Source: an uncultured Bacilli bacterium | Lineage (GTDB): Bacteria; Bacillota_I; Bacilli_A; RF39; UBA660 | DNA: 38,505 nucleotides | Assembly (NCBI GenBank): GCA_944332295.1 | Contig: CALVJR010000010.1 | Span: 1 to 38,505, forward strand | Direction of reading: 5' to 3' | Shown: piece by piece, positions 1,221 to 16,270 of the stretch | Layout of the letters: each line of letters opens with the position of its first letter | Position numbering within the stretch: the first letter of the stretch is position 1 | Made by a program: the position numbers and the translations under genes | Notes under the pieces: model-generated | Told to the model about the DNA's origin: nothing | The model's database searches: none | What the model saw: only the letters and a program-made list of their open reading frames with translations

Positions 1221-1976
1221 TTAATTTTCAAAATAATAAATTTGATCAAAAAGCTCTTCTAAACTCTTTTTCCTAATAGAAAATTGCATACTCTTATTTT
1301 TATTTTTCCCGAAATCTTTACCACTCTTAGCAAATCTTAATATTAAAGCAACTGATATATCTTTCTCTTCAATACACTTTATAAAAGCTCCGATACCCTT
1401 ATATTTATAGCACTCTAATTTATAATATCTAAAATAAAAATTGTCATTAGAAACAGTCTTACTCGCATAAAACAAAGCAAGATAACGAAGTTTGACACGT
1501 AATCTTTGCTCCAGAGAATCAAAAAAAATAAAAGCTCTATCTTCCAAGAAATTCAACTCATTATCATAGATTCTTATGAAAATCTTTTTACTATCATAAT
1601 CAATCTTTAATTCAAAATAATACTTATCATAAACTAAAACTTTTCTATTTAATTTTAAATTGACAATTAACTTCTTATGTTCTTGGTACATCTCATCTCT
1701 TATTCCATAAGTTTCTAATAAGTAATTACTTTCAAACAAATCAGGACCATCAAATGCTAAAGAGAATAAACTTATATTGTACCTACTAAATCTTTGCGTA
1801 CATTTTACTTCTATACCATAATAATCAGGTAAAAACATACTATCAGGATTTTTACCAAGTTGATTTTCTAATGTAAGCCCAGCAGAATTATATAAATTAT
1901 TATTAATGCCTTTCATATATCCTTTCATATTTATTTTTTTAAATTCTTCAATTATTGTTTCAAATTCTTTTTCCAT
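1221..1976 (-). CDS. MvaI/BcnI-family restriction endonuclease, apparently orphan
   Basis: A 251-residue protein of the MvaI/BcnI type II restriction family, monomeric PD-(D/E)XK enzymes that cut CCWGG or CCSGG sites. Residues 33-58 show the family signature: GLTLENQLG, then PDYYGIEVK, which gives a complete catalytic triad Asp51, Glu56, Lys58. Length fits the family (about 230-260). The start has the Shine-Dalgarno AGAGGTGG 5 bases before the ATG. No partner DNA methyltransferase is encoded on either side: the left neighbour is unrelated and tRNA genes lie to the right. The cognate methylase must therefore lie elsewhere, or the enzyme is a solitary selfish or decaying element, or it acts on unmodified foreign DNA. 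The exact recognition site cannot be told from sequence. Confidence 0.85.
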   Translation of the reverse strand: MEKEFETIIEEFKKINMKGYMKGINNNLYNSAGLTLENQLGKNPDSMFLPDYYGIEVKCTQRFSRYNISLFSLAFDGPDLFESNYLLETYGIRDEMYQEHKKLIVNLKLNRKVLVYDKYYFELKIDYDSKKIFIRIYDNELNFLEDRAFIFFDSLEQRLRVKLRYLALFYASKTVSNDNFYFRYYKLECYKYKGIGAFIKCIEEKDISVALILRFAKSGKDFGKNKNKSMQFSIRKKSLEELFDQIYYFEN

Positions 1977-1997
1977 ATTCCACCTCTTTTAGAGGGT

Positions 1998-2075
1998 TAT
2001 GCTATCAGTTGGTTAGAGCGATATTTGTTGATTCTTGGAATAAAAATTATATTTTGGATAAGTTCGGGCGGTCAC
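1998..2075 (+). repeat. Broken inverted copy of tRNA-Ile in the restriction gene leader
   Basis: On the plus strand CAGTTGGTTAGAGC (2006-2019) is identical over 14 bases to the D-arm of tRNA-Ile encoded on the minus strand at 2210-2286. CGGGCGGTCAC (2065-2075) is identical over 11 bases to its anticodon-stem/variable-loop junction. The weaker TTA-GCT match at 1998-2004 extends it to the left. In the real tRNA 14 bases separate the two blocks, and here 45 unrelated bases do. The acceptor and T arms are missing, so this is a tRNA remnant in the opposite orientation, not a functional tRNA. Confidence 0.7.
2046..2051 (-). promoter_or_regulatory. Likely -10 box of the restriction gene
   Basis: TATAAT on the minus strand, 70 bases ahead of the restriction gene start, with no strong -35. 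A transcript starting near 2038 would carry the reverse complement of the tRNA D-arm in its leader, followed by a short hairpin (CCTCT-AAA-AGAGG, 1980-1992) that pairs the Shine-Dalgarno. Confidence 0.4.
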
Positions 2076-2080
2076 AAAGC

Positions 2081-2106
2081 AAAAAAAAAGACCAGCAGGG
2101 TCCTTT
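2081..2106 (-). terminator. Terminator of the tRNA-Ile/tRNA-Leu transcript
   Basis: The minus strand reads AAAGGACC, loop CTGCT, GGTCTTTT followed by a run of nine T. It lies 11 bases beyond the CCA end of tRNA-Leu and is a textbook intrinsic terminator. Confidence 0.8.
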
Positions 2107-2116
2107 TGTTTCATAA

Positions 2117-2200
2117 TGGTGCGGGTAACAGGAGTTGAACCTGCACGTCTGGGACACTAGATCCTAAGTCTAGCGCGTCTGCCAATTCCGCCATACCCGC
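2117..2200 (-). tRNA. tRNA-Leu(TAG)
   Basis: An 84-nt class II tRNA with encoded CCA at 2117-2119. The acceptor GCGGGTA pairs with TACCCGC. The anticodon stem CTAGA/TCTAG carries the loop CTTAGGA, giving anticodon TAG, which reads CUA leucine codons. A long variable arm (GTGTCCCAGAC region) and T-arm GTTCAACTC are present. It lies 9 bases downstream of tRNA-Ile on the same transcript. Confidence 0.95.
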
Positions 2201-2209
2201 AACTGATAA

Positions 2210-2286
2210 TGGTGGACCCTACTGGACTCGAACCAGTGACCGCCCGGTTATGAGCCGGATGCTCTAACCAACTGAGCTAAGGGTCC
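2210..2286 (-). tRNA. tRNA-Ile(CAT), lysidine type (or elongator Met)
   Basis: A 77-nt tRNA with encoded CCA. The acceptor GGACCCT pairs with AGGGTCC, the D-arm contains CAGTTGGTTAGAGC, the anticodon loop is CTCATAA, and the T-arm is CTGGTTCGAGTCCAG. The CAT anticodon on a GGACC-type body with GGCTCATAACC closely resembles the Bacillus and Mycoplasma tRNA-Ile whose C34 is changed to lysidine by TilS to read AUA. It lacks the first-pair mismatch of the initiator tRNA. Elongator tRNA-Met is the alternative. Confidence 0.85.
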
Positions 2287-2297
2287 ATGACTCCTTA

Positions 2298-2326
2298 ATC
2301 ATAACACATTTAGGGCGGTCACGCAA
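2298..2326 (-). promoter_or_regulatory. Promoter of the tRNA pair
   Basis: -35 TTGCGT (2326-2321) and -10 TATGAT (2303-2298) are separated by 17 bases, with the -10 box 11 bases ahead of tRNA-Ile. The sequence GTGACCGCCC, also found inside tRNA-Ile and at 2066-2075, overlaps the -35/spacer. Confidence 0.65.
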
Positions 2327-2551: not shown

Positions 2552-3580
2552 CTATATATTCACTAAAGGATTATACTTTTGATATAGACTATCACTATAT
2601 TTAATTATTTTATCTCTAGCTAACCGGTAAACAAAAAATGATTTAACAACATCTAATTCTTCAATATTTTCGTAATTAATCTTTATTTTATCATATATTT
2701 TATTAGGAACCATCCAATCTAATGCTTGCATATTTGCTTTTATCTCATAATCTTCTGTTTCTTTATCATCTAACATTGTAATGATACTTCCACTTTTTGC
2801 TCGATTATAATCACTTTTACAATGAGCAAGCTCATGTAATAAAGCAAAATAAATATCAGCATATCTTTTATGTTTTCTCGTTATATATATTGCAGGTTTA
2901 TCATTTAATACTTTAAATGCACCTCTTACCTTAGTACCTCTTAAATCATCTTGGATAGCTAAAAAAATACCATTCTTATTAAATTCCATGATTAATTTAT
3001 TCTCATCAAAAGAATGATTACTTGCTTCCATTTTAATAAATTCCACCAATTTATTAATATTTTCTTTTGTATATTTTTCAACTTCTTGATTTTCAATAAT
3101 TCTATTACATCTTTCTAACCATAAAGCTAATAATTCTGGTTTATCATTTTTACTTTTATAAAAAATCACATTATTTTCTTTTGTTAATGAATTAGGATTA
3201 GTAATTCTTAAATATTTTAATATATCTTTTGCGATAGCATAATCATTTCTAGAGTCGCTATATTTTACCTGATACTCATTAGCTAATTCTTTATAACTAA
3301 ATCTATTAATATAATTTCTAATAGATAAATGATTCTCATCCAGATAATTTTTAATTACTTTATCCATTTTATAATTTTGTTCAGTATTTTCAATATAACT
3401 TACTGGAATACCAGTAATAAAAGAAATGTTATATATCATATTTTGAGACAATTCAACGTTACCCTTTATAATATCTATTAAGTTTTTAGAGGTTGTATTA
3501 ATTCGATCAGCAAATTCTTTTATACTAATATTCTTGTACTCTAAAAATTCACCTAATTCTCTACCAAATTTATTCATCAT
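2552..3580 (-). CDS. HigA-like antitoxin: XRE helix-turn-helix plus ImmA/IrrE metallopeptidase domain
   Basis: About 342 residues. The N-terminal 65 residues form an XRE-type helix-turn-helix (NISIKEFADRINTTSKNLIDII). The C-terminal half is an ImmA/IrrE-type zinc peptidase domain with LLHELAH at about residues 247-253. It is the second gene of the pair: the chosen ATG at 3580 (with another at 3577) overlaps the toxin stop in the string ATGATGAATAA, which implies translational coupling; a longer reading frame to 3622 has no ribosome site. The helix-turn-helix should bind the palindrome at 3955-3970 and repress the operon. The peptidase may process itself or a partner, as ImmA does, but that is inferred. 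Most HigA antitoxins are near 100 residues, so the added domain is notable. Confidence 0.85.
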   Translation of the reverse strand: MMNKFGRELGEFLEYKNISIKEFADRINTTSKNLIDIIKGNVELSQNMIYNISFITGIPVSYIENTEQNYKMDKVIKNYLDENHLSIRNYINRFSYKELANEYQVKYSDSRNDYAIAKDILKYLRITNPNSLTKENNVIFYKSKNDKPELLALWLERCNRIIENQEVEKYTKENINKLVEFIKMEASNHSFDENKLIMEFNKNGIFLAIQDDLRGTKVRGAFKVLNDKPAIYITRKHKRYADIYFALLHELAHCKSDYNRAKSGSIITMLDDKETEDYEIKANMQALDWMVPNKIYDKIKINYENIEELDVVKSFFVYRLARDKIIKYSDSLYQKYNPLVNI

Positions 3581-3908
3581 AAAATCTGAGTTTAGCAGGA
3601 GTAAAGTCATTATAATGATCATAACTTACATACACAAAAATTATTTCTCTTTCGTCTGTTGATGGCATTACTATTAATCTTATTACTCCACCATTTTTTT
3701 CTAAATTAAAAGACCAAAAACCACTATTTTGATATCTTAACGGTCCAAATTTATAAATTGTCGTCATAATTGGATTGTTTTGTAATTCTTTAAATGAATT
3801 GTGATTCGTAATCTTTTCCGTTATGTCTTCTAAATTAGCTAATTCCTTTCTATGTTTTTTTAAGTTTTTTACTGAGTTATCAAAACTTTTTGTATATGTT
3901 ATGTGCAT
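3570..3908 (-). CDS. RelE/HigB-type mRNA interferase toxin
   Basis: 112 residues of the RelE/ParE superfamily, HigB-like branch. It shows a basic N-terminal helix pair (SFDNSVKNLKKHRKEL) and the C-terminal beta-sheet IRLIVMP...REIIFVYVSYDHYND, where the final His-Tyr is typical of the family. Such toxins cut mRNA on the ribosome and stop growth unless bound by antitoxin. It is the first gene of the pair, the order seen in higBA. AAGGAGG lies 11 bases before its ATG. A stronger, closer Shine-Dalgarno (AAGGAGGTGT) further upstream serves an 18-codon reading frame that overlaps the toxin start. Assignment to HigB rather than another RelE branch is from gene order and the partner. Confidence 0.85.
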   Translation of the reverse strand: MHITYTKSFDNSVKNLKKHRKELANLEDITEKITNHNSFKELQNNPIMTTIYKFGPLRYQNSGFWSFNLEKNGGVIRLIVMPSTDEREIIFVYVSYDHYNDFTPAKLRFYDE

Positions 3909-4000: not shown

Positions 4001-4030
4001 AAAAAAAATAAAAGATTTTCATCTTTTATT
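4001..4030 (-). terminator. Terminator of the capsule locus
   Basis: A perfect 10-bp stem AATAAAAGAT/ATCTTTTATT (4007-4016, 4021-4030), 4-nt loop, then a T8 run on the minus strand. It overlaps the last codons of the second LCP gene. Confidence 0.9.
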
Positions 4031-5471
4031 CTTTCTCCAAAACTTCATTTATTTTATTTCTTGCATTAACAACATCATTCATATTAGGTTGCATTGCATA
4101 ACCTTTTCCGTTCAATATAGCAATATCTGCATCCCATAAATCAGATCCATCCACCGATTGAGTAATGAACCTCCATTCCGCACCATCAATCGTATCTTTA
4201 GCAATATCAGTAATTACACTTCTTGGAATAGTTGTTGTATATAAATTACTTAAAGAATCTAATATTTCTTTATAATTAACAAAAGAATTGGTACTCTTTA
4301 GCTTTTCAAAGATAGCAATAATAATCTTTTGACAATTCTGCTGTCTTACTCTATCTCTTCCAACGAAAGCATTTCTTTCTCTTGCAACAGTTAAAGTTTC
4401 TATTCCATTTAACTCTTGGCATCCTTTTTTTACATATAACTTTTTCTTACCACGATCATCATAGGAATTTAAAATCAATGCATGAGTCGTCGTAAAACTT
4501 TGATCAGAACAATAAGTAATACCACCAACTTTATCTACTAACTCTACTAAACTCTCTGTTGTAATATGAATATTATAATCAATTGGTACTTCAAAAAACT
4601 CAGCAACAGATTTCTCTGCTTTATCTAACCCGAAAGCATACATATGGGATAAAGAATCTTTTTTACCATTCATTCCAGAAATATTCATATAATAATCCCT
4701 TGGAATACTAGTCATTAATATTTCATGAGTATTCATATTAACAGTAACAATAGTATTATAATCAATTAGGCCATCAAAATCCCTACCAGCAATATAAATA
4801 TTAAAACTACTCTTCTTCTCCTCTTCTTCCTTCTTTTCAACATCGGTTGCAATATCAAACTCATAAACTATTTTAAAAGAATCTTTATCAAGACTATCAT
4901 TAACATTTAATAAAACATCATAACTAGCTTTATCAATCAACATAAAATCAATATCTTTATTTAATACATCACTTACCATAGTAGTAACATTATCATAAGA
5001 AGAACTCTTAATAGAAAACTCACTTTCTACCTCTTTTAAAGCCTTCTTAATATTACTACTATTCTTATAATAATAAATAGTACCTTTAATATCTTTCTTC
5101 TTATATTTATTCTCTTTATTAGTAACAATATAATAAGTAGATATCTCTTTTTTTACATTACTAAAAGACTCATTTAAAAACTCATTTCCATAATATAAAT
5201 AATAACTACCTACACCACTTAATACAATGGAAATAAGTATTAAACCAACACCAATTATCTTAACTACTTTCTTCTTTAAATTAATAAATACAATAGATAA
5301 AACAATAAGTATAGAAATTACTAAAATAATAAGTATTAAGTATTTAGTAGGTAAAATATTAATACTAAATAAGAAATATAAAAATATACTAAATACAATA
5401 ACTACAATAATACTTAATATATTTAATTTACTAATATGATATTTCTTAGTCTTATCCTTAGTCTTTTTCAT
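4026..5471 (-). CDS. LytR-CpsA-Psr (LCP) family ligase, second copy
   Basis: 481 residues from the ATG at 5471, which has GGAGAAGG 8 bases upstream and overlaps the preceding LCP gene by 14 bases; an earlier in-frame ATG lacks a ribosome site. LCP enzymes move undecaprenyl-linked polysaccharide onto peptidoglycan. The layout is a short basic cytoplasmic start, three membrane segments, an accessory extracellular domain of about 110 residues, then the LCP domain with MTSIPRDYYMNISG, GLDKAEKSVAEFF, ELVDKVGGITY and the Arg-rich LTVARERNAFVGRDRVRQQ that binds the pyrophosphate. It pairs with the LCP gene just upstream, as last genes of the capsule locus. The two are paralogues with the same layout, perhaps with different acceptors. 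Confidence 0.9.
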   Translation of the reverse strand: MKKTKDKTKKYHISKLNILSIIVVIVFSIFLYFLFSINILPTKYLILIILVISILIVLSIVFINLKKKVVKIIGVGLILISIVLSGVGSYYLYYGNEFLNESFSNVKKEISTYYIVTNKENKYKKKDIKGTIYYYKNSSNIKKALKEVESEFSIKSSSYDNVTTMVSDVLNKDIDFMLIDKASYDVLLNVNDSLDKDSFKIVYEFDIATDVEKKEEEEKKSSFNIYIAGRDFDGLIDYNTIVTVNMNTHEILMTSIPRDYYMNISGMNGKKDSLSHMYAFGLDKAEKSVAEFFEVPIDYNIHITTESLVELVDKVGGITYCSDQSFTTTHALILNSYDDRGKKKLYVKKGCQELNGIETLTVARERNAFVGRDRVRQQNCQKIIIAIFEKLKSTNSFVNYKEILDSLSNLYTTTIPRSVITDIAKDTIDGAEWRFITQSVDGSDLWDADIAILNGKGYAMQPNMNDVVNARNKINEVLEKE

Positions 5472-6888
5472 TTGACACCTTCTCCAACAATTCATTAATT
5501 CTATTAGATGCATCTTTTCTACTTTCTTCATCAGGTATCGTTACATATAATCTCATACCTGGCATAGAATAAGTTTCCATATAAGTAGAAGCAGCAGTAC
5601 CAGTAACAGCTTCTCTATAAACACTCCATTTACTCATAGTATCTATTTGATTTCTAACATATTTTTTTATAGTATCAGTAGGAATATTAGTTTGAAATAA
5701 ATCTTTTAAATCATCTAAGATATTACCATAATCTTTAAGTAATTCCTTACTACTAGAAATCTTAGTAATAATAGCTTCAATAATTCTTTCTTGATGTTCT
5801 CCTCTAGTATTATCTCCATTAGGCATCTTCTTACGTTCTCTAGCATATTCTAAAGCTTCTTTACCATTTAAATGAATCATACCTTTTTCAAAGTATCTAG
5901 TTCTACCTTGGAATGCTACATCATTATTAACATCAACACCATCAATAGTATCTACTAGTTTAATAACACTATCAAAGTTAACTCTAATGTAATAAGGAAT
6001 ATCAATCTCTAAGAAATCTTCTATTGTATTAATAGACATATCAATACCATAAATTCCCGCATGAGTTAATTTATCTTTAAGACCAGTAGTACCATGAAGT
6101 TGTACATACATATCACGAGGAATATTAGTAAGTAAAACTTCATGAGTATAAGGATTAATCGTTACTACAATATTAACATCACTTCTAGATACACTATCAA
6201 TATGACCATTCGTATCAATACCACTAATTAAAATATTCATAGGTCCATATTTTTTCTCTTCTTCTTGTTCTTTTTTCTGAATCACATCTATCGATAACTC
6301 AGCAATAACCCTAGTATTAGACTGAAAAGAATCCATATTTTCATCTAATATCTCTTTATTAGTAGAATTAATCAATAAACTATCTACATCACCATTTAAT
6401 AAATCTTTAACGATAGTATTCATATTCGTATATTCCTTATCATGAATAGTAATACTATCACGAACTTCCTCTAATACTTTTTTATAATTATTAGACTGTC
6501 TTTCAAAAATAGCCATAGTTTTATCTTCTAAATCATCTAACTCTTTATATTTACTATCTTTCTTTACTACAACATAATAAATCTTCTTCTCTTTTACTTC
6601 TTCTATCGTATCAAAAAAAGAATTTGTAGTCCAAACATAATAAATACCAATAAAAGACAATGTACCAAAAAGTAACATAAAAACAAGTAAAATAATAGAC
6701 AAAACAAATCTTTTAACCTTAAAAGAAAAAATAGTAAAGAAAATACCAAGTACTACAACCAATACACTAAGTATAACTAAATATTTAACAGGTATTAATC
6801 CCATTCTATATACACTAACTAATAATAGAATAAATACAATATCTAAAACAATACTAATCACTCTATTAATATATTTAAATACTCTCAT
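5458..6888 (-). CDS. LytR-CpsA-Psr (LCP) family ligase, first copy
   Basis: 476 residues from the ATG at 6888 (AGAAGG 9 bases upstream; the ATG at 6906 has no ribosome site). Three N-terminal membrane segments (about residues 9-80) are followed by an accessory domain that looks like a small solute-binding module (residues 95-205), then the LCP catalytic domain with SDVNIVVTINPYTHEVLL, TNIPRDMYVQLHG, LVDTIDGVDVNNDV and EYARERKKMPNGDNTRGEHQ. The IPRD and RER/R residues are those that hold the polyprenyl pyrophosphate in Cps2A and TagT. It should attach the capsule polymer to cell wall. A 43-bp gap separates it from the flippase gene, so it belongs to the same transcript. Confidence 0.9.
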   Translation of the reverse strand: MRVFKYINRVISIVLDIVFILLLVSVYRMGLIPVKYLVILSVLVVVLGIFFTIFSFKVKRFVLSIILLVFMLLFGTLSFIGIYYVWTTNSFFDTIEEVKEKKIYYVVVKKDSKYKELDDLEDKTMAIFERQSNNYKKVLEEVRDSITIHDKEYTNMNTIVKDLLNGDVDSLLINSTNKEILDENMDSFQSNTRVIAELSIDVIQKKEQEEEKKYGPMNILISGIDTNGHIDSVSRSDVNIVVTINPYTHEVLLTNIPRDMYVQLHGTTGLKDKLTHAGIYGIDMSINTIEDFLEIDIPYYIRVNFDSVIKLVDTIDGVDVNNDVAFQGRTRYFEKGMIHLNGKEALEYARERKKMPNGDNTRGEHQERIIEAIITKISSSKELLKDYGNILDDLKDLFQTNIPTDTIKKYVRNQIDTMSKWSVYREAVTGTAASTYMETYSMPGMRLYVTIPDEESRKDASNRINELLEKVSNEKD

Positions 6889-6931
6889 ATAACCACGCCT
6901 TCTCATTGTTTGTAAGATAATTTATAAATTA

Positions 6932-8362
6932 TTATGAGCTTAATACTTTATTTAATCTCTTTTTCTTTCTATTTAGTATTATTTGCTTTAATGCAATAAG
7001 AATATAACGGTTTAATATTATTGATGAAATTATCATTATTATTATGTTCATAATATTTAAGTAACTGTTATTAACGTAATATAAGATTATTGATATTGCA
7101 AATTGTAATATTATAACAGCATAATTTTTCCAACCGATTTTTAATTTTACATACTTTTGGACATCTACCATTCTATATATACACATAATCAAAAAAGCTA
7201 ATATGATACTAATGGCCGAAGCCCGAACACCAATTATTTTAACAAATAATAAATTAATAGCTATGTTTATAACTCCGGACCAAAATGAGGTCTTTGCAAC
7301 AGCCTCGGTCTTTTTTAATGCAATATATATTCCGCCAACAAAAGATATAATAATATTAAAAAAAGAGCCAATTACTAATGGTGGAATATAAATATAAGCT
7401 TCATGATAATTATGACTAATTATGATATTGAAGCATAATGGTAGCACACTTATCATGCAACAGCATACAGCCGATGAAAAGAAGAGCACTTTTTTTAATG
7501 TATCAGAAAAGAATTCATCTTTATCATCCTCATTTATATGTAAAGATGACGACTCTGTCCAAGATAAATTAAAAATATTGTATAAGCTTGCAACTATTGT
7601 TGCAAACTTATGAGAAACTGCAAAAATCCCATTTGCTGTTGCACCTATAAATATCGTAATTATTGTTCGATCAGATGCATTTATAATCCACCACATAATA
7701 CTGTTTGGTACCAGTGGGGATGAATATTTTAAATATTTTTTTACACTATTTTTATTTATTTCATTAAAATCAACTAACGTATATAATTTGTTCGATATAA
7801 AAAGATAAAATGTACAAAATAAATTTGATAATGCCGTTGCTACTAATACGCCGTTCCCCTGCATTTTAAATCCAAGTATAAATATTAAATTGAAAACAAT
7901 ATTACTAACTCCAGCAATTATACATCCAGCGGAATATTTAATATTATTACCTAATCCTCTAGCACTTTGTAAAAACAAATTTGATAAAATAGTTGCAATA
8001 ATACAAGTATATAAACTCATTTTATATGGAAACTTAAATATTAATGATACAATTAAATAAATAATTGAAAAAATAACAATTAATACTAAAACTACACTAA
8101 ATATATTTGTAAAAACTCCCGTTTTCTTTTTATTATTATCACGGCAATCTATCAGAAATCGAAACATTGACATTTCTAATTGTATTGTTATAACAGGTAC
8201 AAAAAGGCCTATATATGTTATTATCAAGTCAACTTGACCATATTCTTTGGTTGATAAAAAATATGTATAAAATGGAATAAGTAAAAAAGATATAAATTGT
8301 GTACATATTTTTCCAAGCATAATAATTAATGTGTTTTTTGCTAATTCTTTACCCTTTGACAT
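6932..8362 (-). CDS. Wzx-like polysaccharide flippase (MOP superfamily)
   Basis: 476 residues, almost wholly hydrophobic, with about 12-14 predicted membrane helices. The start MSKGKELAKNTLIIMLGKI and the TFYLFISNKL and PLVPNSIMWWIINASDR segments are typical of RfbX/Wzx exporters, which flip undecaprenyl-linked repeat units to the outer face. AGGAGG lies 7 bases before the start. It stands between the pyruvyltransferase fusion and the LCP genes, the expected place in a Wzx/Wzy locus. The gap upstream (8363-8509) is AT-rich and holds a TATAAT, but no firm promoter. Codon use is very AT-rich, as in the other serotype-specific genes here. Confidence 0.9.
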   Translation of the reverse strand: MSKGKELAKNTLIIMLGKICTQFISFLLIPFYTYFLSTKEYGQVDLIITYIGLFVPVITIQLEMSMFRFLIDCRDNNKKKTGVFTNIFSVVLVLIVIFSIIYLIVSLIFKFPYKMSLYTCIIATILSNLFLQSARGLGNNIKYSAGCIIAGVSNIVFNLIFILGFKMQGNGVLVATALSNLFCTFYLFISNKLYTLVDFNEINKNSVKKYLKYSSPLVPNSIMWWIINASDRTIITIFIGATANGIFAVSHKFATIVASLYNIFNLSWTESSSLHINEDDKDEFFSDTLKKVLFFSSAVCCCMISVLPLCFNIIISHNYHEAYIYIPPLVIGSFFNIIISFVGGIYIALKKTEAVAKTSFWSGVINIAINLLFVKIIGVRASAISIILAFLIMCIYRMVDVQKYVKLKIGWKNYAVIILQFAISIILYYVNNSYLNIMNIIIMIISSIILNRYILIALKQIILNRKKKRLNKVLSS

Positions 8363-8509
8363 TTTATCCTCCTATTTGAATTGATTTTTGTCATAAACAA
8401 ATAAATATAATTACTATAAAATAAAATTATATAAATCAACATAACAATCCGTTCTATCTAGAAATTATAACACCAGATTCATTTTATAAATTATAACTTT
8501 ATATATTTA

Positions 8510-10708
8510 TTAATAATTTTTAAATTGTGATTTCCATGCGTTAATTTTTTCTTCATCAATATGTACTTTGGTCTCAAATTCTGAATTTATAACCTTTTCA
8601 ATTTTGTCAATTTCTGTTCTTAAGAAACAATTAATATTATATTTTTCACGAATATCAAGAGCTCTATTGTCTACTGCAATAATAATACTTCTACATTTAT
8701 GTTGCATAGCAAATATTCCTGCATGCAATCTGGTTCCAACATAATCAATATCCATATTTAAAATATTATCATAGCTTTTTAAGTTTGGATTAACCATTTT
8801 TATATTATCGATATTTTCAAATGATTTAATATACTGATAATCACGAGACCCTTGTATCCAAAAATATACATTTTTATAATTACGCTGCAATACATCTATT
8901 AATTTTTGATCATTTTCCTTATCAGGGCAATAATCGGTTAATGTAAATATTACATTTTCACTTTTTTTAGTAGGTATTTCTTTACAAAAATCACGTGTAA
9001 GCATCCACATTGTTGCACATCCTGTATTAATTGCTTTGATCCCAATGCTCTCTAAAAATTTTTTTGTTCTTTCGTCTCGTGTAGAGTGAATATACTTCTT
9101 AGAGAGTGTTTTTTTGTAAAGTAATTTTGTGTACCAATTAACTTTTTTAGCATTAGGATTTATACCAACACCAACAAGAATTGATTTTTTATATGGCCTG
9201 TAATTAAATATATTTACATTCCAATTATTCCACGGTAAACACATATTATAATTTAACAGATTTGTACCAGCTATAAATTTATATTTTGCTTTTTCTAAAT
9301 ATTTTATTGTAGCATTTCTATAAATATTTTGATAAAAGTGGGTAATAGGTGTGTGTGTTCCATATTTAACCAAAAAATTATTACTTAATATATCACTTAA
9401 CTCTCGTTCAACAGAATTAACTATAATATAGTCTCCCATGTTTTGACTGCCAGAAGATGTATCAAATAATACGTTGAAATAAAAATCTTCTGATAAGGTA
9501 TTTAAAAAATTATTATAATATTTTTTTGTTGTTAAATTTTTTGAAATTTTTAAACTTTCTGCTTTCATTGCCATTCTTTTCTCCTTATCATTCAATAATT
9601 TTTCTATACTTTTTGCAAGATTGATTTCAAATTTATTATTTTTTTTATCCAAAATAATTGCACATTTATTATTAACATATTCTGGAATCCCACCAGAGTT
9701 TGTTGTTATAATTGGTAGGCCACATGTAAGCGATTCTATTATTGTGAGTGGTGCTGGATCATCCCAAATTGAAGGCAAAACAGCAATATCAGCCAACTGA
9801 TACAATTCATAGATTTTATCATAATCAATATATCCAGTAAAAACAACTTTTTTTTCTATAGATTTTACTTTTGATTCTACTTCCAATTCATATTTAGTTT
9901 TGGCATTTATACTATTTAATGATGCTCCAACAATCAATAATTTATATTTTCCTTTTACATAATTTAACGCATTTAATAATTCAAGAACTCCTTTTTCTGG
10001 AACGATTCTACCAGTAAACAATAAAACTTTATCATCATGCTCTATTTTATATTTTCTTAGAAGCAAACCCTTTCTTTCCTTGGAGATATTTTGGTGAAAT
10101 TTATCTTGATTAATGGCATTTTTCAACACAACAAATTTCTCTGAGCTTAATTTTAAATAATTTTGTAATGATTTTGAAATGTAATTACTTACACATATAA
10201 ACTTTTTTGTTTCTTTTATTATTTTTTCACAACCATACAATCCCGGGAATTCGTTGTGACAATGGTAATAATATCTTCCTTCATATTTTCTATAGTTTTT
10301 TCTCCATTTTAATGCCAAAAATTGTGTTGGATGATTTTCTAATAATACCTTATCATAATTATATTTCTTTAAATATTTACTTACTTTATTAAGATAGTAT
10401 AATCTTTTTAAAATAAATCTATAACTTTGACTATTTGTTTTTTTTAACCAATTTTTTGCTACAAAAAATAATGCCTTATCTAAAAAATTAATAATTTTGG
10501 GTGTCTTTATAAAAACAAAATTTGATTGTGTATACACTTTAGAGCTTTGTTTTGCAATTTCATCATAATCAGAATATACTATTATGTTTAATGGATTTTT
10601 TTTGTTTAATTCATTTTCATTTAATAGATTTACAATTAAATTTTCTACTGCTCCACCTTTAGATGCTGGTACAGGTAAAAAACCACTTGTTATGATTGCT
10701 AATTTCAT
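8510..10708 (-). CDS. Glycosyltransferase (GT4) fused to polysaccharide pyruvyltransferase
   Basis: 732 residues with two complete domains. Residues 1-400 are a GT-B fold GT4 glycosyltransferase: KGGAVENLIVNLL near the start, LLFTGRIVPEKGVLELL at 229-245, and the donor-site motif DIAVLPSIWDDPAPLTIIES at 307-326 with GLPIITTNSGGIPE following. Residues 412-732 are a polysaccharide pyruvyltransferase (WcaK/CsaB family): DTSSGSQNMGDYIIVNS at 416-432 and YVGTRLHAGIFAMQ at 656-669. The fusion could add a sugar and then put a pyruvate ketal on it or on the growing repeat, from phosphoenolpyruvate. The start overlaps the Wzy stop as ATGA, so the two are translationally coupled. The two activities are usually separate proteins. 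Base runs give no sign of an assembly join; the frame is open throughout. Confidence 0.9.
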   Translation of the reverse strand: MKLAIITSGFLPVPASKGGAVENLIVNLLNENELNKKNPLNIIVYSDYDEIAKQSSKVYTQSNFVFIKTPKIINFLDKALFFVAKNWLKKTNSQSYRFILKRLYYLNKVSKYLKKYNYDKVLLENHPTQFLALKWRKNYRKYEGRYYYHCHNEFPGLYGCEKIIKETKKFICVSNYISKSLQNYLKLSSEKFVVLKNAINQDKFHQNISKERKGLLLRKYKIEHDDKVLLFTGRIVPEKGVLELLNALNYVKGKYKLLIVGASLNSINAKTKYELEVESKVKSIEKKVVFTGYIDYDKIYELYQLADIAVLPSIWDDPAPLTIIESLTCGLPIITTNSGGIPEYVNNKCAIILDKKNNKFEINLAKSIEKLLNDKEKRMAMKAESLKISKNLTTKKYYNNFLNTLSEDFYFNVLFDTSSGSQNMGDYIIVNSVERELSDILSNNFLVKYGTHTPITHFYQNIYRNATIKYLEKAKYKFIAGTNLLNYNMCLPWNNWNVNIFNYRPYKKSILVGVGINPNAKKVNWYTKLLYKKTLSKKYIHSTRDERTKKFLESIGIKAINTGCATMWMLTRDFCKEIPTKKSENVIFTLTDYCPDKENDQKLIDVLQRNYKNVYFWIQGSRDYQYIKSFENIDNIKMVNPNLKSYDNILNMDIDYVGTRLHAGIFAMQHKCRSIIIAVDNRALDIREKYNINCFLRTEIDKIEKVINSEFETKVHIDEEKINAWKSQFKNY

Positions 10709-11982
10709 AAGCTTACTCCTCTCTTATAATTTAATCTATTTGCTTTTAATCCTAAACCAAGTATCATAAAAATATTTAATGCTGCTGGAGGTAACCAATA
10801 TCCTCCTTCAATAAGTCCAACAATTAACCAAATAATTATAGCTAAATGTGTTGCCTTTGATATATAATTTTCATTTTTTGACAATTTTAAAAACACAAAA
10901 AATACAGAATAAAGCAAAAGCAAGCCGATGATTCCTGTTTGGACAAAAACTGCCAGTGGTAACATTTCATATGCTAAGCCAGAAAATTGAATTATACCAT
11001 AAGGTCCTATAATATATGCTAAAATACTATTTGAATATTTTAATGAATTGAAAACTTCTATTAATCCTTCCGTTCTTCCACTCATACTTAACCAATTAGA
11101 CGTTCCGAAGAAACGACTTGAAACAACTGGAAATAATTGAAATACTATAATAAATGATACACCACAAAGTAAAATTGTCATAATTTTCAATGCTAATGAT
11201 TTTTTTGTTTTATCGTTTTCCATTAAAACGCCCAAAAATATAAAGAGAACTATTCCCAACCAACATGATCTAGATAACGTTAAAAAAGTAGTTATTACAA
11301 ACAAGAATAGCGAAATTAATTGTTTTTTCGGTTGATTTGTATGTCTATAAAAGTAATATACAATTGGATATATTAAAATTAAACTTATGCCAAATAAATT
11401 ACCATTTTGATAAGTTCCTACAATTTTTGCATTATTTACATCAGTCCCATTAGCTTTAGTCATATACCATAATGGTCCTAACTCTTGATAATCAGTTAAA
11501 TTCACTGTGAGCCCTGGAATGGCAACAGTTTCTATTTTAAATATATATTGCAGAATTGCATATATACATAAAAAGAAAAATCCATAGATAATAGTTCTTA
11601 TAATCTTATCCATTTTTTCTTTAGTATCTACTAAATCATATACTATAAAAAATATTAATGGATAAATACATAATGGAATTATATATCCAATTACAGAAGT
11701 AATAGTAACATTTTTTACAAGAATAATATAGAAATATTTTAAGAAGAAATAAGCAATTCCTAGCAAAATTAATCCGCCTAAAGGAATCTTCTTAATTTTT
11801 CCTTCCTTAATAACTTTGGCACACCAAATGACAAAAGTAATAGCAAAAATTACATTTCCTAATGTTAAAGGAATTCCGCCTAATTTTATTCCTGCTTTGG
11901 GAAACCATAGATTCCAAAAAATAGTTATTAATAATAAATTAAATAATGTTTCTGTTTTTTTCTTAATGGATATATCTTCCAT
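10705..11982 (-). CDS. Wzy-like polysaccharide polymerase / O-antigen ligase family
   Basis: 425 residues with about 10-12 membrane helices and one long extracytoplasmic loop in the middle (about residues 150-200, PGLTVNLTDYQELGPLWYMTKANG), the hallmark of the Wzy/WaaL (O-antigen ligase-like) superfamily. GTYQNGNLFGISLIL and TFLTLSRSCWLGIVLF match the conserved N-G-N and SRS segments that flank that loop. In this setting it should polymerise repeat units on the outer face of the membrane. The Shine-Dalgarno AGGGGGAG precedes the ATG. It ends in the ATGA overlap with the glycosyltransferase-pyruvyltransferase fusion. Confidence 0.85.
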   Translation of the reverse strand: MEDISIKKKTETLFNLLLITIFWNLWFPKAGIKLGGIPLTLGNVIFAITFVIWCAKVIKEGKIKKIPLGGLILLGIAYFFLKYFYIILVKNVTITSVIGYIIPLCIYPLIFFIVYDLVDTKEKMDKIIRTIIYGFFFLCIYAILQYIFKIETVAIPGLTVNLTDYQELGPLWYMTKANGTDVNNAKIVGTYQNGNLFGISLILIYPIVYYFYRHTNQPKKQLISLFLFVITTFLTLSRSCWLGIVLFIFLGVLMENDKTKKSLALKIMTILLCGVSFIIVFQLFPVVSSRFFGTSNWLSMSGRTEGLIEVFNSLKYSNSILAYIIGPYGIIQFSGLAYEMLPLAVFVQTGIIGLLLLYSVFFVFLKLSKNENYISKATHLAIIIWLIVGLIEGGYWLPPAALNIFMILGLGLKANRLNYKRGVSL

Positions 11983-12004
11983 AATTTTACTCCCCCTAAA
12001 AAAA

Positions 12005-13123
12005 TTAAATGCTTTTTAGATATTTTGCTTTCAAATTTTTTGCTTCTTTATTGATATTATAATTATTTAATTTTATTGTTTTTAAAATTAATTTTCTTAT
12101 ATCTTTATCAGTAAGTAAATTTATACACTCATGTGACCATAACTTCGCATTTTTACTTAATGGTATAAATTCTACGCCGTTTGATATTTTTGCAATTTTA
12201 GGAACTTCTGTAGAAGCTACGCATGGTAACCCAGCACATTGAGCTTCAATTAATACCATTCCTAGTCCTTCATACAAGGATGGAAATAAAAACAAATCCA
12301 TAGCTTGATACAATTCATTAGCATCACTTCTTTGACCTAAGAATTTTACATTTTTATCTAATCTTAACTCATCTACCTTATTTTGTATTTCTTCTTTTAA
12401 AGGGCCTTCTCCTATTAATAAAAGAATTGCATTTTTGTCCTGTTTATAAATTTCATTAAATATATCAATTAGAAATTCATGATTTTTCTGTTGTACAAAT
12501 CTACCAATATGTCCTATAACTAATTGATTATCTTTTATATTTAATTCTTTTCTTTTTTCTTTTCTTATCTTTTCATCATATTTAAACTTATCTACATCAA
12601 TAGCATTATTTAATAAATATACTTTTCCTTGATCATAAGTTTTGTTTCCAAATAACCATCTTCCTGCTAATTCACTGCAGCAAAAATAGTCTGTTGCGAA
12701 AACTTTACTAAATGGTCTTAATATATTTTTTAATAATGTTTTCTTCCATTCTTTTTTATTCGAAGTAGAATGGCTATGTGCAATTCTTACTGGAACTTTA
12801 GCACTTTTAGCTGCCCAAAGTGAAAATACACTTAATGCATTAATATGAGAATGCACAATTTTATATTGTCCATCTTGTAATACCTTTTTTAAAGTCTTAT
12901 GATACTTAAATACTTTTTGATAAGGTGGTATCAAAATTACTTTACCACCTAACTTTTCTATTTCCTCTGTAGGAATACGAGTAGAATCATCATCACAAAT
13001 AAAATCAAACTGGATTTTATCTCTATCTATATGACGATAATAATTCATCACTACCGCTTCTACTCCTCCACCTACCCATTTACCCATGATTTGAGCAATT
13101 CTTATAGGTTCATTCTTCTCCAT
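12005..13123 (-). CDS. GT4 family glycosyltransferase (EpsF-like)
   Basis: 372 residues from the ATG at 13123, chosen because AAAGAGGTG lies 6 bases upstream; the longer frame to 13168 runs through a hairpin and has no ribosome site. It is a GT-B fold GT4 enzyme: RIAQIMGKWVGGGVEAVVMN at the start (acceptor side), VIGHIGRFVQQKNHEFLI in the middle, and the donor-site motif DLFLFPSLYEGLGMVLIEAQ with GLPCVASTEVP following. It has no membrane segment and would act at the inner membrane face, adding a sugar to the lipid-linked primer made by the transferase upstream. Sugar specificity cannot be told. A 135-base gap ahead of it holds a hairpin and a possible internal promoter. Confidence 0.9.
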   Translation of the reverse strand: MEKNEPIRIAQIMGKWVGGGVEAVVMNYYRHIDRDKIQFDFICDDDSTRIPTEEIEKLGGKVILIPPYQKVFKYHKTLKKVLQDGQYKIVHSHINALSVFSLWAAKSAKVPVRIAHSHSTSNKKEWKKTLLKNILRPFSKVFATDYFCCSELAGRWLFGNKTYDQGKVYLLNNAIDVDKFKYDEKIRKEKRKELNIKDNQLVIGHIGRFVQQKNHEFLIDIFNEIYKQDKNAILLLIGEGPLKEEIQNKVDELRLDKNVKFLGQRSDANELYQAMDLFLFPSLYEGLGMVLIEAQCAGLPCVASTEVPKIAKISNGVEFIPLSKNAKLWSHECINLLTDKDIRKLILKTIKLNNYNINKEAKNLKAKYLKSI

Positions 13124-13142
13124 ACAACACCTCTTTACAACA

Positions 13143-13171
13143 AAAGTGTCTATGCAAAACATAGGCACTTT
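13143..13171 (-). promoter_or_regulatory. Hairpin just ahead of the GT4 gene, possible attenuator
   Basis: Arms AAAGTG and CTATG (13143-13148, 13150-13154) pair with CATAG and CACTTT (13160-13164, 13166-13171), with one mismatch and a 5-nt loop. On the minus strand it is followed by TTGTTG and then the ribosome site of the GT4 gene. A TATAAT (13181-13176) with a weak GTTAAA 17 bases upstream lies directly before it. It could be an internal promoter with a 5' stabilising stem, or a leaky terminator. Confidence 0.4.
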
Positions 13172-13258
13172 AATTATTATATTACCGCACTCACTGTTTT
13201 TAACGCATACTTAATATTTAACTACAAACTTATATACATCTATCTTATTTGATTAAAA

Positions 13259-14017
13259 TTATTCTGCACCTTTACCAAATAATACTGCTGTAAAAGTCTT
13301 AAAGAATATTTTAATATCAAGTATTAATGAATAATTGTTAGAATAATATTTTTCTAATTTTAGTCTCTCTTTAAAACTTGTCTTACTTCTTCCATTTACT
13401 TGCCAATATCCTGTGATACCTGGCTTTGTTTTAATAATATCTTCGTAGTATTCTTCCATATCTTCTTTTTCTCTAGGTAAATATGGTCTATTACCAATAA
13501 TAGACATATCCCCTTTTAAAACATTAATAAGTTGAGGTAATTCATCAATAGAAAGTTTTCTAATGACTTTTCCTACTTTTGTAATTCTAGGATCATTTTT
13601 AAATTTCTTATTTTTCTTATATTCTTCCGCAGCAACCTTATCCATCTCTAAAGTACGAAATAATACTTCATCTGCATTTGGTACCATAGAACGAAATTTA
13701 TAAAATTTAAATTCTTTTCCATTCTTGCCAATTCTATTTTGTGTAAAAATAATAGGATGAAAATCTCCAGTTGCCATAGTTATAATCTTTAAAATAATAC
13801 CAACTGGTATTAATATAACAACACCAATCAAACCACACACAATATCAAATACTCTTTTTACGAATAAATATCCTAATTTTCTAACAGATACTTTATTCAC
13901 TCTTTCTAACTCTTCTTGCTCCTTCTGATAAGCATCTAAATCCATAATAATTTCTTTTGTCTTAATAATTTCTTCTTCACTACTATTTTCTTGTTCTTTT
14001 ACTAATACCTCATCCAT
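13259..14017 (-). CDS. Initiating sugar-phosphate transferase (undecaprenyl-phosphate)
   Basis: 252 residues of the bacterial sugar transferase family (WbaP/EpsL/PglC-type monotopic phosphoglycosyl transferases). These start polysaccharide synthesis by moving a sugar phosphate to undecaprenyl phosphate. After a 40-residue charged N-terminus comes one hydrophobic segment (FDIVCGLIGVVILIPVGIIL), then KFYKFRSM, ITKVGKVIRKLSIDELPQL, GDMSIIGNRP and KPGITGYWQVNGRS, all conserved in the catalytic domain. It lacks the extra N-terminal membrane helices of full WbaP, which is normal for the short form. AAGGAG precedes the ATG. It follows the regulatory kinase/phosphatase genes, as in streptococcal and staphylococcal capsule loci. 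Confidence 0.92.
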   Translation of the reverse strand: MDEVLVKEQENSSEEEIIKTKEIIMDLDAYQKEQEELERVNKVSVRKLGYLFVKRVFDIVCGLIGVVILIPVGIILKIITMATGDFHPIIFTQNRIGKNGKEFKFYKFRSMVPNADEVLFRTLEMDKVAAEEYKKNKKFKNDPRITKVGKVIRKLSIDELPQLINVLKGDMSIIGNRPYLPREKEDMEEYYEDIIKTKPGITGYWQVNGRSKTSFKERLKLEKYYSNNYSLILDIKIFFKTFTAVLFGKGAE

Positions 14018-14071
14018 ACCTATACTCCTTAACTTCTCTACTTATTTACTACTACAATTACTACTACAAAC

Positions 14072-14800
14072 TTATCTTCTAATACCAAAGTTTTCATTCG
14101 CTACTACTTTGTTAAAGTTATTCTCTAATAAGTCCTCTATCATGTTATCACTTTTTACTATTGATTTCAATTTCTTTTTTAACTTTTTTATCTTAAAATC
14201 TTTCTCATGATGACAATCACTACCTAAAAAGGTAATTTGATGTTTCTTTAAAAAATAAATTAATGTCTTCTTAGCTTGACTACCATATTTACCAAACAAA
14301 CTCTTATAGTTTCCTTGTAATAATACTCCCATTCTTAGATATTCTTCTATATGATCTGGATGTCTTTGAAAAATTCTATATCTTTCTGGATGAGCAAGTA
14401 CTGGTACATACCCTGCTACTACAAGTTCATAAATAATATCTTTTGTATTATATAACATATTACCTAATGGAAATTCTAATAATATGTATTTAGAATTATT
14501 TAAAGTAGTTATTTCTTTCTTTTTTAATAACTTAATAAAATTATCATTAATAAATACTTCATTACCTAAATATAATTTAATATTTATACCTTCATCTTTT
14601 ACTGCTTGAACTAGTTGATCAAATCTTTTTTTCTTATCCTCATTATTACAATTATATTTACTCTCTTCTATATAATGAGGTGTGATCATTAATTCTGTTA
14701 TCCCTTGTTTTTCTGCTTCTTTTAATAAAGATATACTCTCACTTATATCTTTACTTCCATCATCTATCCCAAAAAGCAGATGTGAATGTAAATCTTTCAT
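14072..14800 (-). CDS. cpsB: CpsB/CapC-type PHP tyrosine phosphatase
   Basis: 242 residues of the PHP-type manganese-dependent protein tyrosine phosphatases (CpsB, CapC, YwqE). Metal-site motifs are DLHSHLLFGIDDG at residues 3-15, ITPHY near 40, AHPERY near 137 and GSDCHH near 195. It removes phosphate from the Tyr-rich tail of the kinase encoded just upstream and so sets capsule chain length and output. Its ATG overlaps the kinase stop as TAATG, indicating coupled translation. Confidence 0.92.
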   Translation of the reverse strand: MKDLHSHLLFGIDDGSKDISESISLLKEAEKQGITELMITPHYIEESKYNCNNEDKKKRFDQLVQAVKDEGINIKLYLGNEVFINDNFIKLLKKKEITTLNNSKYILLEFPLGNMLYNTKDIIYELVVAGYVPVLAHPERYRIFQRHPDHIEEYLRMGVLLQGNYKSLFGKYGSQAKKTLIYFLKKHQITFLGSDCHHEKDFKIKKLKKKLKSIVKSDNMIEDLLENNFNKVVANENFGIRR

Positions 14801-15513
14801 TATCTTCTTTTCTTCTTTTTCTTCTCGCCATAATATTCACTTGAATAATAACTATAATAGCTATTATCTTTTACAGAAGCTTTATTGATCACTACACCTG
14901 CTATCTTAGCATTTGCTTGAGCAAATACTTTTTTAGCTTTATCTAGGCTTTCTACTTTAGTCTTTTTATTACTTACTACAATAATATTAGCATCACTATA
15001 CTTAGTCATTATCATAGTATCACTTAATCCTAATACTGGAGGGCAATCTAATAAAATAACATCATATATTCCCCTTAATTCTTCCATTAACTTTTTATTA
15101 TTCTCAGACGCTAACAACTCTACTGGATTAGGAGGAGTTGGTCCTGTAGGTAATAAATCTATATTTTTATTACTAGTACCTACAATATATTTTTTTAACT
15201 TAATATCGTCTTTATAATTTAGAATTAAATTAGAGTAACCACCACTAGTTAAATTCATAACTTCAAAAATTTCATGTTGTCTACCTTTACGTAAATCACA
15301 ATCTACAACCAATACTTTTTTACCTTCTTGTGCATAAGCAACTGCAAGATTAGCGGTAATAAAACTTTTTCCATCTCCTGATTGAGGTGAAGTACTTAGT
15401 ATTACTTTCATTTCTCCATCAATTGCTTGAAATGCTAAATTAGTACGAATTGTTTTAATAGCTTCACTAAAAATAGATTTAGGGTTTACATTAATAATTA
15501 AATCTGTTGACAT
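14800..15513 (-). CDS. cpsD: CpsD/CapB-type bacterial tyrosine kinase
   Basis: 237 residues of the BY-kinase family. Walker A is SPQSGDGKS (42-50), Walker A' is VLVVDCDLRKG (67-77), and VILLDCPPVLG follows as Walker B. The C-terminus is a Tyr cluster (SYYSYYSSEYYG) followed by a Lys/Arg tail; these tyrosines are the autophosphorylation sites. The kinase is cytoplasmic and needs the membrane activator encoded just upstream (CpsC), with which it forms the split Gram-positive pair. AAGGAG lies before the ATG. Confidence 0.93.
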   Translation of the reverse strand: MSTDLIINVNPKSIFSEAIKTIRTNLAFQAIDGEMKVILSTSPQSGDGKSFITANLAVAYAQEGKKVLVVDCDLRKGRQHEIFEVMNLTSGGYSNLILNYKDDIKLKKYIVGTSNKNIDLLPTGPTPPNPVELLASENNKKLMEELRGIYDVILLDCPPVLGLSDTMIMTKYSDANIIVVSNKKTKVESLDKAKKVFAQANAKIAGVVINKASVKDNSYYSYYSSEYYGEKKKKKRR

Positions 15514-15519
15514 AACTCA

Positions 15520-16185
15520 CTACTCCTTACTTTCTTTAGGAACTATACCAATTACAGTTAAACCTAATTTTTCTTCTACAGTTTCACTTGATTTAATAGT
15601 AGTATCAAAATAATACATAACAAATACTACACCAAAAGATAATACTACTCCAATCATTAAATAAATAACATTATCTTTTACATAATTAATATTATATGGA
15701 GCATCTGCTTCTTCTGCTTTATCGATAATTGCTACATTCTCTAAGTTATAAATATCTTGTATTTCATCAGAAAACACATCAGCTACTTCATTAGCTATTT
15801 CAGCAGCCATTTTTTTCTTTTCATTATTTACTGTAATACGAATAATTTCTGTATCTTCAACAGAAGATGTAGTAATATTTTTAGATAACTCATCTACAGT
15901 CATTTTTAATTTTAAATTATCAATTACTTGTTGTAATACTTTTCTACTAGTAATAATCTCACTATAAGTACCAATTAAGTTCTGATTTAATTGAGAATCA
16001 GTTTGACTATATTCTTTTTTACTCTCACCAACTAGTACAATCGTAGTATTACTTTGATACATTGGAACTCTTGTTAATATGGTATATACATTACCAATAA
16101 TTACAATCACAACTATCGCAAGTATCATCCAAAGCAATCTAGATTTAAAATAACTATACACTTCTTTTAAATTTATCTCTTCCAT
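15520..16185 (-). CDS. cpsC: CpsC/Wzz-type chain-length regulator and kinase activator
   Basis: 221 residues from the ATG at 16185 (GGGAGGG 6 bases upstream). It has a membrane segment near each end (about residues 16-38 and 170-192) flanking an extracytoplasmic domain, and the short charged C-terminus that contacts the kinase. The N-terminal MEEINLKEVYSYFKSRLLW and VPMYQSNTTIVLV are typical of the Wzz/CpsC/YwqC family. It is the first gene of the capsule operon, 35 bases from the -10 box; the in-frame ATG at 16248 lies inside the -35 element and so cannot be the start. Confidence 0.92.
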   Translation of the reverse strand: MEEINLKEVYSYFKSRLLWMILAIVVIVIIGNVYTILTRVPMYQSNTTIVLVGESKKEYSQTDSQLNQNLIGTYSEIITSRKVLQQVIDNLKLKMTVDELSKNITTSSVEDTEIIRITVNNEKKKMAAEIANEVADVFSDEIQDIYNLENVAIIDKAEEADAPYNINYVKDNVIYLMIGVVLSFGVVFVMYYFDTTIKSSETVEEKLGLTVIGIVPKESKE

Positions 16186-16219
16186 ACGAACCCTCCCTAA
16201 ACGTGTATAAATCGTGCTT

Positions 16220-16270
16220 ATTATAACATTTTTTATACCATTCGTCAATTTATTTTGTCATATTTTGTCA
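16220..16270 (-). promoter_or_regulatory. Capsule operon promoter with tandem repeat upstream
   Basis: -35 TTGACG (16248-16243) and -10 TATAAT (16225-16220) with a 17-base spacer make a near-consensus sigma-A promoter. Directly upstream, TGACAAAATA occurs twice in tandem (16251-16260 and 16261-16270), and TTGACG repeats its core at about the same phase. This could be a regulator site or alternative -35 elements. Confidence 0.85.

Follow-up and report, generated by a model that had tools for sequence, protein, structure and literature searches.

Two classes of known system place tRNA complementarity in a leader or a nuclease beside tRNA genes. T-box leaders pair with tRNA through a specifier plus the acceptor end. 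The free-standing phage homing endonuclease SegB is a precedent for a lone nuclease beside phage tRNA genes, as described in PMC13096335. Two further processes are relevant: BcnI and MvaI, type II restriction endonucleases, are reported to be monomers that cut one DNA strand and then the other (PMC4081073), and template switching creates reverse-complement copies and restores pairing (PMC8794818). Here we describe a locus that shares features with these systems and differs from them, in a window of 38,505 nucleotides (the whole stretch of DNA analysed) from a 1.71-Mb genome assembly. A solitary nuclease gene follows a tRNA pair on the same strand; its leader contains three stretches that are antisense to the adjoining tRNA-Ile(CAT), and a fourth antisense stretch sits in the promoter of that tRNA (Table 1). 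As in T-box and other tRNA-sensing leaders, complementarity to a tRNA is followed by a hairpin resembling an expression platform; the complementarity here, in contrast, is antisense to the D-arm, variable loop and T-arm, and no T-box was among the covariance-model matches up to E = 1 in positions 1900–2450. SegB belongs to a different protein family from the window nuclease. Both are lone nucleases by tRNA genes, and the gene described here is apparently mobile as well, but it lies on a bacterial chromosome beside an intact tRNA and inverted tRNA pieces. Quasipalindrome or template-switch mutation likewise creates and restores reverse-complement copies, whereas copies of the type in the window are found repeatedly next to a single nuclease family, and this at two tRNA loci. 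Among the search listings of the open-access literature (PMC), we found no description of a nuclease combined with inverted tRNA pieces.

The window nuclease shares sequence family and an intact catalytic motif with the MvaI/BcnI type II restriction endonucleases: it matches PF15515 (Pfam; E = 1.7e-23) and the R.MvaI structures 2oa9/2oaa (E = 1.5e-19), and residues D51, E56 and K58 are invariant in an alignment of 18 sequences. PADLOC returned type II restriction enzymes as most of the names for the three nuclease proteins scanned, together with one weaker match of the L009 protein to a type II methyltransferase model; a search of NCBIfam with the nuclease proteins gave no match. The difference from type II restriction–modification is that no cognate methyltransferase was found beside the gene—none of the 30 window ORFs scanned (nuclease included) matched a DNA-modification methyltransferase, and the only methyltransferase match in the window was an O6-methylguanine repair protein (33026–33550). 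A C5 methyltransferase is absent from 12 of the 19 genomes carrying nucleases of the window's group (group 1), and G000 has two on other contigs. Class-wide, PF15515 was found in 19 of 395 genomes, including three that do not belong to this bacterial family; of the genes in these three, two (L224 and L225) have a methyltransferase-like neighbour (read from motifs), the other (L239) has none and its frame is broken under the standard code, and none of the three fetched stretches contains a tRNA. Tandem MvaI/BcnI genes on the same strand, possibly a two-subunit form, occur in genus g97 (G334:C15, G375:C10, G396:C22 and G423:C14). Elsewhere in the window, an overlapping gene pair resembling a toxin–antitoxin system lies upstream of the tRNA pair (2552–3908, − strand; its matches, of the YafQ and HTH/IrrE types, are weak and fall short of curated cut-offs), and relatives of its larger gene likewise precede the tRNA pair in L002, L005 and L057. 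A capsule-type polysaccharide cluster (4026–16248, − strand) contains two adjacent LytR–CpsA–Psr genes as well as polysaccharide export-type, glycosyltransferase, sugar transferase, CpsB-like and Wzz genes.

Table 1. Features of the nuclease–tRNA locus in window coordinates.
Feature	Position	Strand	Remarks
Solitary MvaI/BcnI-family nuclease gene	1221..1976	-	251 aa; catalytic motif PDYYGIEVK
Hairpin CCTCT-AAA-AGAGG over Shine-Dalgarno	1983..1995	-	read from the sequence
Antisense piece 3, GCTCTAACCAACTG	2006..2019	-	exact complement of tRNA-Ile D-arm, tRNA positions 13-26
Sigma-70-like promoter match GTGACC-18-TATAAT	2046..2075	-	only one in leader; consensus match alone
Antisense piece 2, GTGACCGCCCG	2065..2075	-	complement of tRNA-Ile positions 41-51
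Intrinsic terminator of tRNA operon	2085..2107	-	contains antisense piece 1
Antisense piece 1, GGACCCTGCTGG	2092..2103	-	complement of tRNA-Ile positions 62-73, one mismatch; within terminator
tRNA-Leu(TAG)	2117..2200	-	same strand, upstream of nuclease gene
tRNA with anticodon CAT, source of inverted pieces	2210..2286	-	ARAGORN prints tRNA-Met
Fourth antisense copy, GTGACCGCCC	2313..2322	-	spacer of tRNA promoter
tRNA promoter	TTGCGT 2326-2321, TATGAT 2303-2298	-	read by eye

The preliminary description had reported that the leader contains the exact complement of 14 bases of the tRNA-Ile(CAT) D-arm, encoded 200 bases away. The match is exact (to D-arm positions 2261–2274) and lies in the same neighbourhood, although the spacing is about 240 bases. 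Allowing up to two mismatches, GCTCTAACCAACTG has only two matches in the window, in the leader and in the tRNA, against 0.05 expected from shuffles; together with the genome counts of the pieces and the association of gene and pieces reported below, this rules out a chance origin. By itself the D-arm piece does not single out tRNA-Ile(CAT), because a third genome copy of the 14-mer lies inside a tRNA-Ile(GAT) gene (contig C83; L069). The remaining pieces, absent from that description, are the more telling ones. The 10-mer GGGCGGTCAC has three occurrences only in the 1.71-Mb assembly, all within 257 bases at this locus. The copy in the tRNA promoter is kept whole or in part in several members of the genus, both with and without the nuclease gene, and is lost in L055, L056 and L058. 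We take the anticodon-CAT tRNA to be tRNA-Ile2 on the basis of its sequence.

Of 16 genomes in the genus, 12 have an MvaI/BcnI match and six, counting the window's own, encode the window nuclease or an orthologue of it (59–90% identity). The tRNA-Ile/tRNA-Leu pair is found upstream in the five loci with enough contig (L001, L002, L003, L005 and L006; L004 starts inside tRNA-Leu), and the antisense pieces are among the best-conserved stretches of the aligned genus leaders. Searches of the family and the order gave nuclease matches in 71 of 291 and 127 of 385 genomes, respectively. Group-1 genes of other genera are likewise located behind this tRNA pair (in G124 the pair was found at a contig end, L080), and their pieces differ in step with differences in their own tRNA, as in L019 (CTACGACCGACCGGTT), L021 (TCGAACCTACAACCGATCGGTT; 22 exact), L022 (TATGACCGATCGGTTAT) and L026 (CCTACGACCGATCG). 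Summed matches of pieces to the tRNA of the same locus exceeded those of all 5,000 permutations, which leave shared ancestry in place, both in group 1 (n = 24; 303 versus 210.6 ± 11.4 for tRNA positions 30–60, and 333 versus 270.8 ± 9.0 for the whole tRNA) and in a second, tRNA-Pro-associated group described below (n = 34; 330 versus 294.7 ± 6.4). The 24 group-1 loci include L193 and the gene-less L141 and L173, which were added for having pieces; L193 encodes a C-terminal gene part only (query 131–247), and its piece still matches its unusual tRNA. L018 was considered as a translocated copy without tRNA genes and rejected: its upstream sequence ends like tRNA-Leu, the tRNA pair of G124 is found at a contig end, and an integrase separates a tRNA-Leu 3′ end from the nuclease leader in L277 and L278. 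A search of IMG/VR with a single protein confirmed no relative, and a search with an alignment returned two near-identical ones. In both (L277:1539–3010 and L278:1539–3010), a prophage-type integrase (identified by eye) precedes the 3′ end of tRNA-Leu, after which comes the nuclease leader with antisense tRNA-Ile pieces; phage integration seems to have separated the nuclease gene from the tRNA pair.

The presence of pieces is strongly associated with the gene. We scored matches downstream of the tRNA pair (match +1, mismatch −2) in deduplicated loci that extend at least 150 nt beyond tRNA-Leu, a locus counting as gene-positive when the gene lay within 1,500 bp and as gene-less when the fetched stretch, rather than the whole genome, held no match. 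An antisense score of at least 10 was reached by 20 of the 22 gene-positive loci and by 3 of the 64 gene-less ones (Fisher 2e-14, kinship left in), and a sense-orientation score of at least 10 by 2 of 22 and 0 of 64, respectively. The gene-positive loci below the threshold were L027 (8) and L029 (5), the gene-less loci with a piece were L057, L141 and L173, and L193, with its partial gene, was counted as gene-positive. Six loci with less than 600 bp, for which gene status is unknown (scores of 5–7), were dropped, as were duplicates, loci with less than 150 nt after the tRNA and tRNA-Pro genes with another tRNA within 100 bp. The search for tRNA-Ile loci had matches in 228 of 283 genomes; the gene-less sample comprised genus loci, 29 automatically fetched new loci (among them L134, a gene-bearing duplicate of L024) and 40 regions chosen by hand down the same list. 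Pieces of the 5′ half of the tRNA lie upstream of tRNA-Ile in L113 (18 nt), L029 (14 nt) and L020 (12 nt), and inverted pieces are also present upstream in the gene-less L176, L183 and L186, those of L176 and L183 likewise from the 5′ half.

A second group of nucleases, roughly 30% identical to group 1, is convergent and points towards tRNA-Pro. Where there is an antisense piece, it is found shortly beyond the tRNA-Pro terminator and at the 3′ end of the convergent nuclease gene; it covers tRNA positions of about 28–54, often with small indels; some tRNA-Pro loci with the gene have no piece. Ungapped antisense scores of at least 9 were found in 19 of the 35 gene-bearing loci and 2 of the 29 others (p = 5e-5), and scores of at least 10 in 13 of 35 and 2 of 29, leaving 22 of 35 loci with the gene below 10; one of the two gene-less exceptions is L124, whose nuclease lies 989 bp away, and L015 and L037 score 0 as their tRNA runs off the locus end (12 in the tracking test). 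We also examined tRNA-Pro in 50 genomes chosen for having no match in the genus and family searches: none of 30 loci encodes a nuclease nearby, and their best antisense score was 10 (L204), the others reaching 8 or less. In two genomes without a nuclease match (L196 and L205), integrase-like ORFs (by eye) occupy the nuclease's usual position behind tRNA-Pro. The tRNA-Pro geometry and the controls indicate that the pieces follow the tRNA and not the nuclease leader.

To compare tRNAs, we surveyed the 480 tRNA genes in the loci fetched by then for antisense matches of at least 10. Pieces were concentrated at anticodon-CAT tRNAs (22/92 downstream, 13/104 upstream; the class includes initiator-type tRNAs) and tRNA-Pro(TGG) (14/34 downstream, against 2/34 in the sense orientation, and 4/17 upstream). 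A few others had pieces: tRNA-Arg(ACG) (4/29 downstream, 1/14 upstream), tRNA-Asn (2/11 downstream, both from one locus), tRNA-Ile(GAT) (1/2 downstream), tRNA-Thr(TGT) (1/12 upstream) and tRNA-Leu(TAG) (1/94 downstream, 0/94 upstream). None was found downstream of tRNA-Lys(TTT) (0/16) or tRNA-Glu(TTC) (0/14), and most other surveyed tRNAs had zero or one piece. Downstream of tRNA-Ile(GAT) in L027 is a 24-nt antisense stretch with mismatches, making this a third tRNA with an inverted copy. The preliminary description had allowed that the D-arm match might be simple debris from an inverted tRNA copy. The pieces are indeed inverted with respect to the tRNA, and sporadic copying in which the nuclease has no role, its link to the pieces reflecting a shared preference for tRNA flanks plus ancestry, would account for the gene-less pieces upstream (L176, L183 and L186) and downstream (L057, L141 and L173) and for the few other tRNAs with pieces (tRNA-Arg, tRNA-Asn and tRNA-Ile(GAT)). 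We nevertheless regard such passive debris as unlikely: most surveyed tRNAs have at most one piece, the gene–piece association is very strong, and the conservation seen in the tracking of local tRNAs and in the spacing of the D-arm element in 11 leaders is not what plain debris would be expected to show.

This element, a 13-mer within the D-arm piece, is present in 11 of 27 group-1 leaders, 41–47 nt ahead of the first codon of the alignment (L001–L006, L018, L106–L108 and L110; 300 nt before each gene were scanned, and the 27 include the near-identical L277 and L278). It is invariant in six lineage representatives, with one base different in L002; unselected copies should not hold it at a near-fixed distance in six lineages. 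Alignment across relatives thus bears out the leader complementarity in part, the antisense pieces being conserved and the 13-mer nearly constant in position in these 11 leaders, whereas the other 16 lack it. The hairpin said to mask the Shine–Dalgarno sequence is present, and a stem is predicted over the Shine–Dalgarno in nine of ten clade leaders examined (the exception is L004), formed by different sequences in different lineages. The fixed 13-mer with its constant edges suggests that one piece gained a leader function in the window's clade, where it is most likely now a conserved cis-element of the nuclease gene; its role may be that of a promoter, a protein site or a site of tRNA pairing. 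The GTGACC hexamer of the leader's sigma-70-like match sits in antisense piece 2, such matches number three in the region against 1.4 in shuffles, and this one is not conserved in L004–L006. We considered whether the conserved TGNTANNAT that follows the 13-mer could be an extended −10 promoter and set this reading aside, as it may equally be residual acceptor-stem antisense; we claim no transcription start.

Pairing as RNA was the second proposal of the preliminary description, in which the level of free tRNA sets translation of a dangerous nuclease. In the window's clade, tRNA-Ile2, its precursor or its fragments would pair with the leader at the D-arm 13-mer and set termination or access to the Shine–Dalgarno, read-through RNA pairing also at the two upstream pieces, one of them inside the terminator. 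The 13-mer is fixed just before the Shine–Dalgarno hairpin, the complementarity matches the tRNA of each host, and computed pairing is strong: for the full intergenic RNA with its own tRNA, the gain is −34.6 kcal/mol in the window (shuffle mean, −1.0), using all three pieces, and about −22 to −39 kcal/mol in relatives with several pieces (shuffle mean, about −1). Based on 20 shuffles per locus, these energies are arithmetic rather than evidence of pairing in cells; they beat all shuffles in 23 of 24 loci (not in L029, and in L027 narrowly). A short leader with the D-arm piece alone gains only about −11 (−48.2 versus −37.0). Changes that preserve pairing through G–U are not in excess in group 1 (7/322 versus 4/239, p = 0.77) or in group 2 (5/223 versus 1/119, p = 0.67; few events); a gapped version of this test was set aside, being dominated by alignment edges and base composition. 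Base pairs of the mature tRNA would need opening, no T-box match was found at 1900–2450, the D-arm element is missing from the 16 group-1 leaders noted above, and L029, which has the same gene, has no downstream piece at all; relatives without the tRNA-like sequence, which the preliminary description had named as a refuting case, thus do occur. Because group-2 nuclease genes are convergent and have the piece at their 3′ ends, regulation through the leader was ruled out as a general cause. Confined to the window's clade, where computed pairing is strong, tRNA-level control is possible, and we consider it somewhat unlikely. A more specific form, in which the nuclease would be silenced by leader pairing with tRNA-Ile2 or its cleaved halves, and released through it, seems to us improbable; pieces 1 and 2 would then face the 3′ half of the tRNA and piece 3 the 5′ half, leaving the anticodon arm free. 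If true, such a sensor of tRNA damage would be a leader that arms a nuclease, unrelated to the T-box.

The nuclease and GltX have discordant histories. Between G000 and G015 the nuclease is 60% identical and GltX 96%, between G000 and G124 63% and 48%, between G000 and G002 86% and 100%, and between G000 and G014 90% and 87%. In the nuclease tree, L001–L003 group with other genera, apart from L004–L006 of the same genus (moderate support, 86/81). We infer that the nuclease gene may move between genomes. GltX may itself have been transferred, as suggested by G211, a member of another genus whose GltX (L254) is 73% identical to that of the window (37–53% for the other genera compared), so that the argument for mobility comprises one marker and a moderately supported tree. 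An empty site is seen in L198, in which tRNA-Pro is directly followed by a carboxypeptidase-like gene (named from its sequence) and there is no nuclease gene; in L011 and L016 these two are separated by the nuclease and nothing else. Comparison of these loci showed no integrase and no direct att repeats bounding the nuclease gene, the nuclease being the only gene in the interval and the pieces inverted. Apparent mobility and the occurrence of two paralogue groups near tRNAs, with the SegB precedent, would fit a homing-type nuclease that targets the tRNA gene, the pieces serving as additional binding sites. Orientation is of no consequence for a site on DNA, however, yet the pieces are nearly all inverted, and they follow sequence changes of the host. 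Moreover, if the tRNA is the target, it shows no alteration or interruption: tRNA-Ile is intact and identical in L001–L003, L005 and L006, and the same sequence is found in six of the seven gene-less genus loci read (L052–L057; L058 differs), so that the host would cut itself. We therefore hold homing to be very unlikely.

Nearly always inverted, present on both flanks whichever way the gene runs and matched to the local tRNA, the pieces point to a process based on strand complementarity, be it fold-back synthesis of DNA or pairing of RNA. The explanation that we favour, tentatively and at slightly less than an even chance, is the former. A mobile solitary gene of the MvaI/BcnI type would settle behind tRNA operons, at tRNA-Ile2/tRNA-Leu and, for distant paralogues, convergently at tRNA-Pro. 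The antisense stretches accompanying it would be inverted copies of the adjacent tRNA gene, made and refreshed at the DNA level by fold-back or template-switch synthesis at that gene, perhaps begun by nicks from the resident nuclease if it cuts one strand at a time; the D-arm copy would then have been fixed before the Shine–Dalgarno hairpin in the leader of the window's clade. Template switching at the tRNA would explain the inversion, the use of either flank, the indifference to gene direction and the tracking of the local tRNA. Against a role for nicks, BcnI and MvaI are reported to cut the second strand soon after the first (PMC4081073). The constant edges of the 13-mer look more like selection than refreshing, and the tRNA-Pro gene loci scoring below 10 (22 of 35) and the three gene-less tRNA-Ile loci with a piece also count against template switching beside the nuclease.

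At this locus, a family of restriction-type nucleases that lacks an evident partner methyltransferase is thus tied to particular tRNA genes by inverted copies that evolve in concert with them. If the pieces arise by copying of DNA, they would document template switching in nature, next to a nuclease; if, in the window's clade, they act by pairing as RNA, they would represent a new kind of tRNA-responsive leader. Either way, the arrangement bears on why lone MvaI/BcnI genes are maintained at tRNA loci of these bacteria and provides a simple signature for searches elsewhere.
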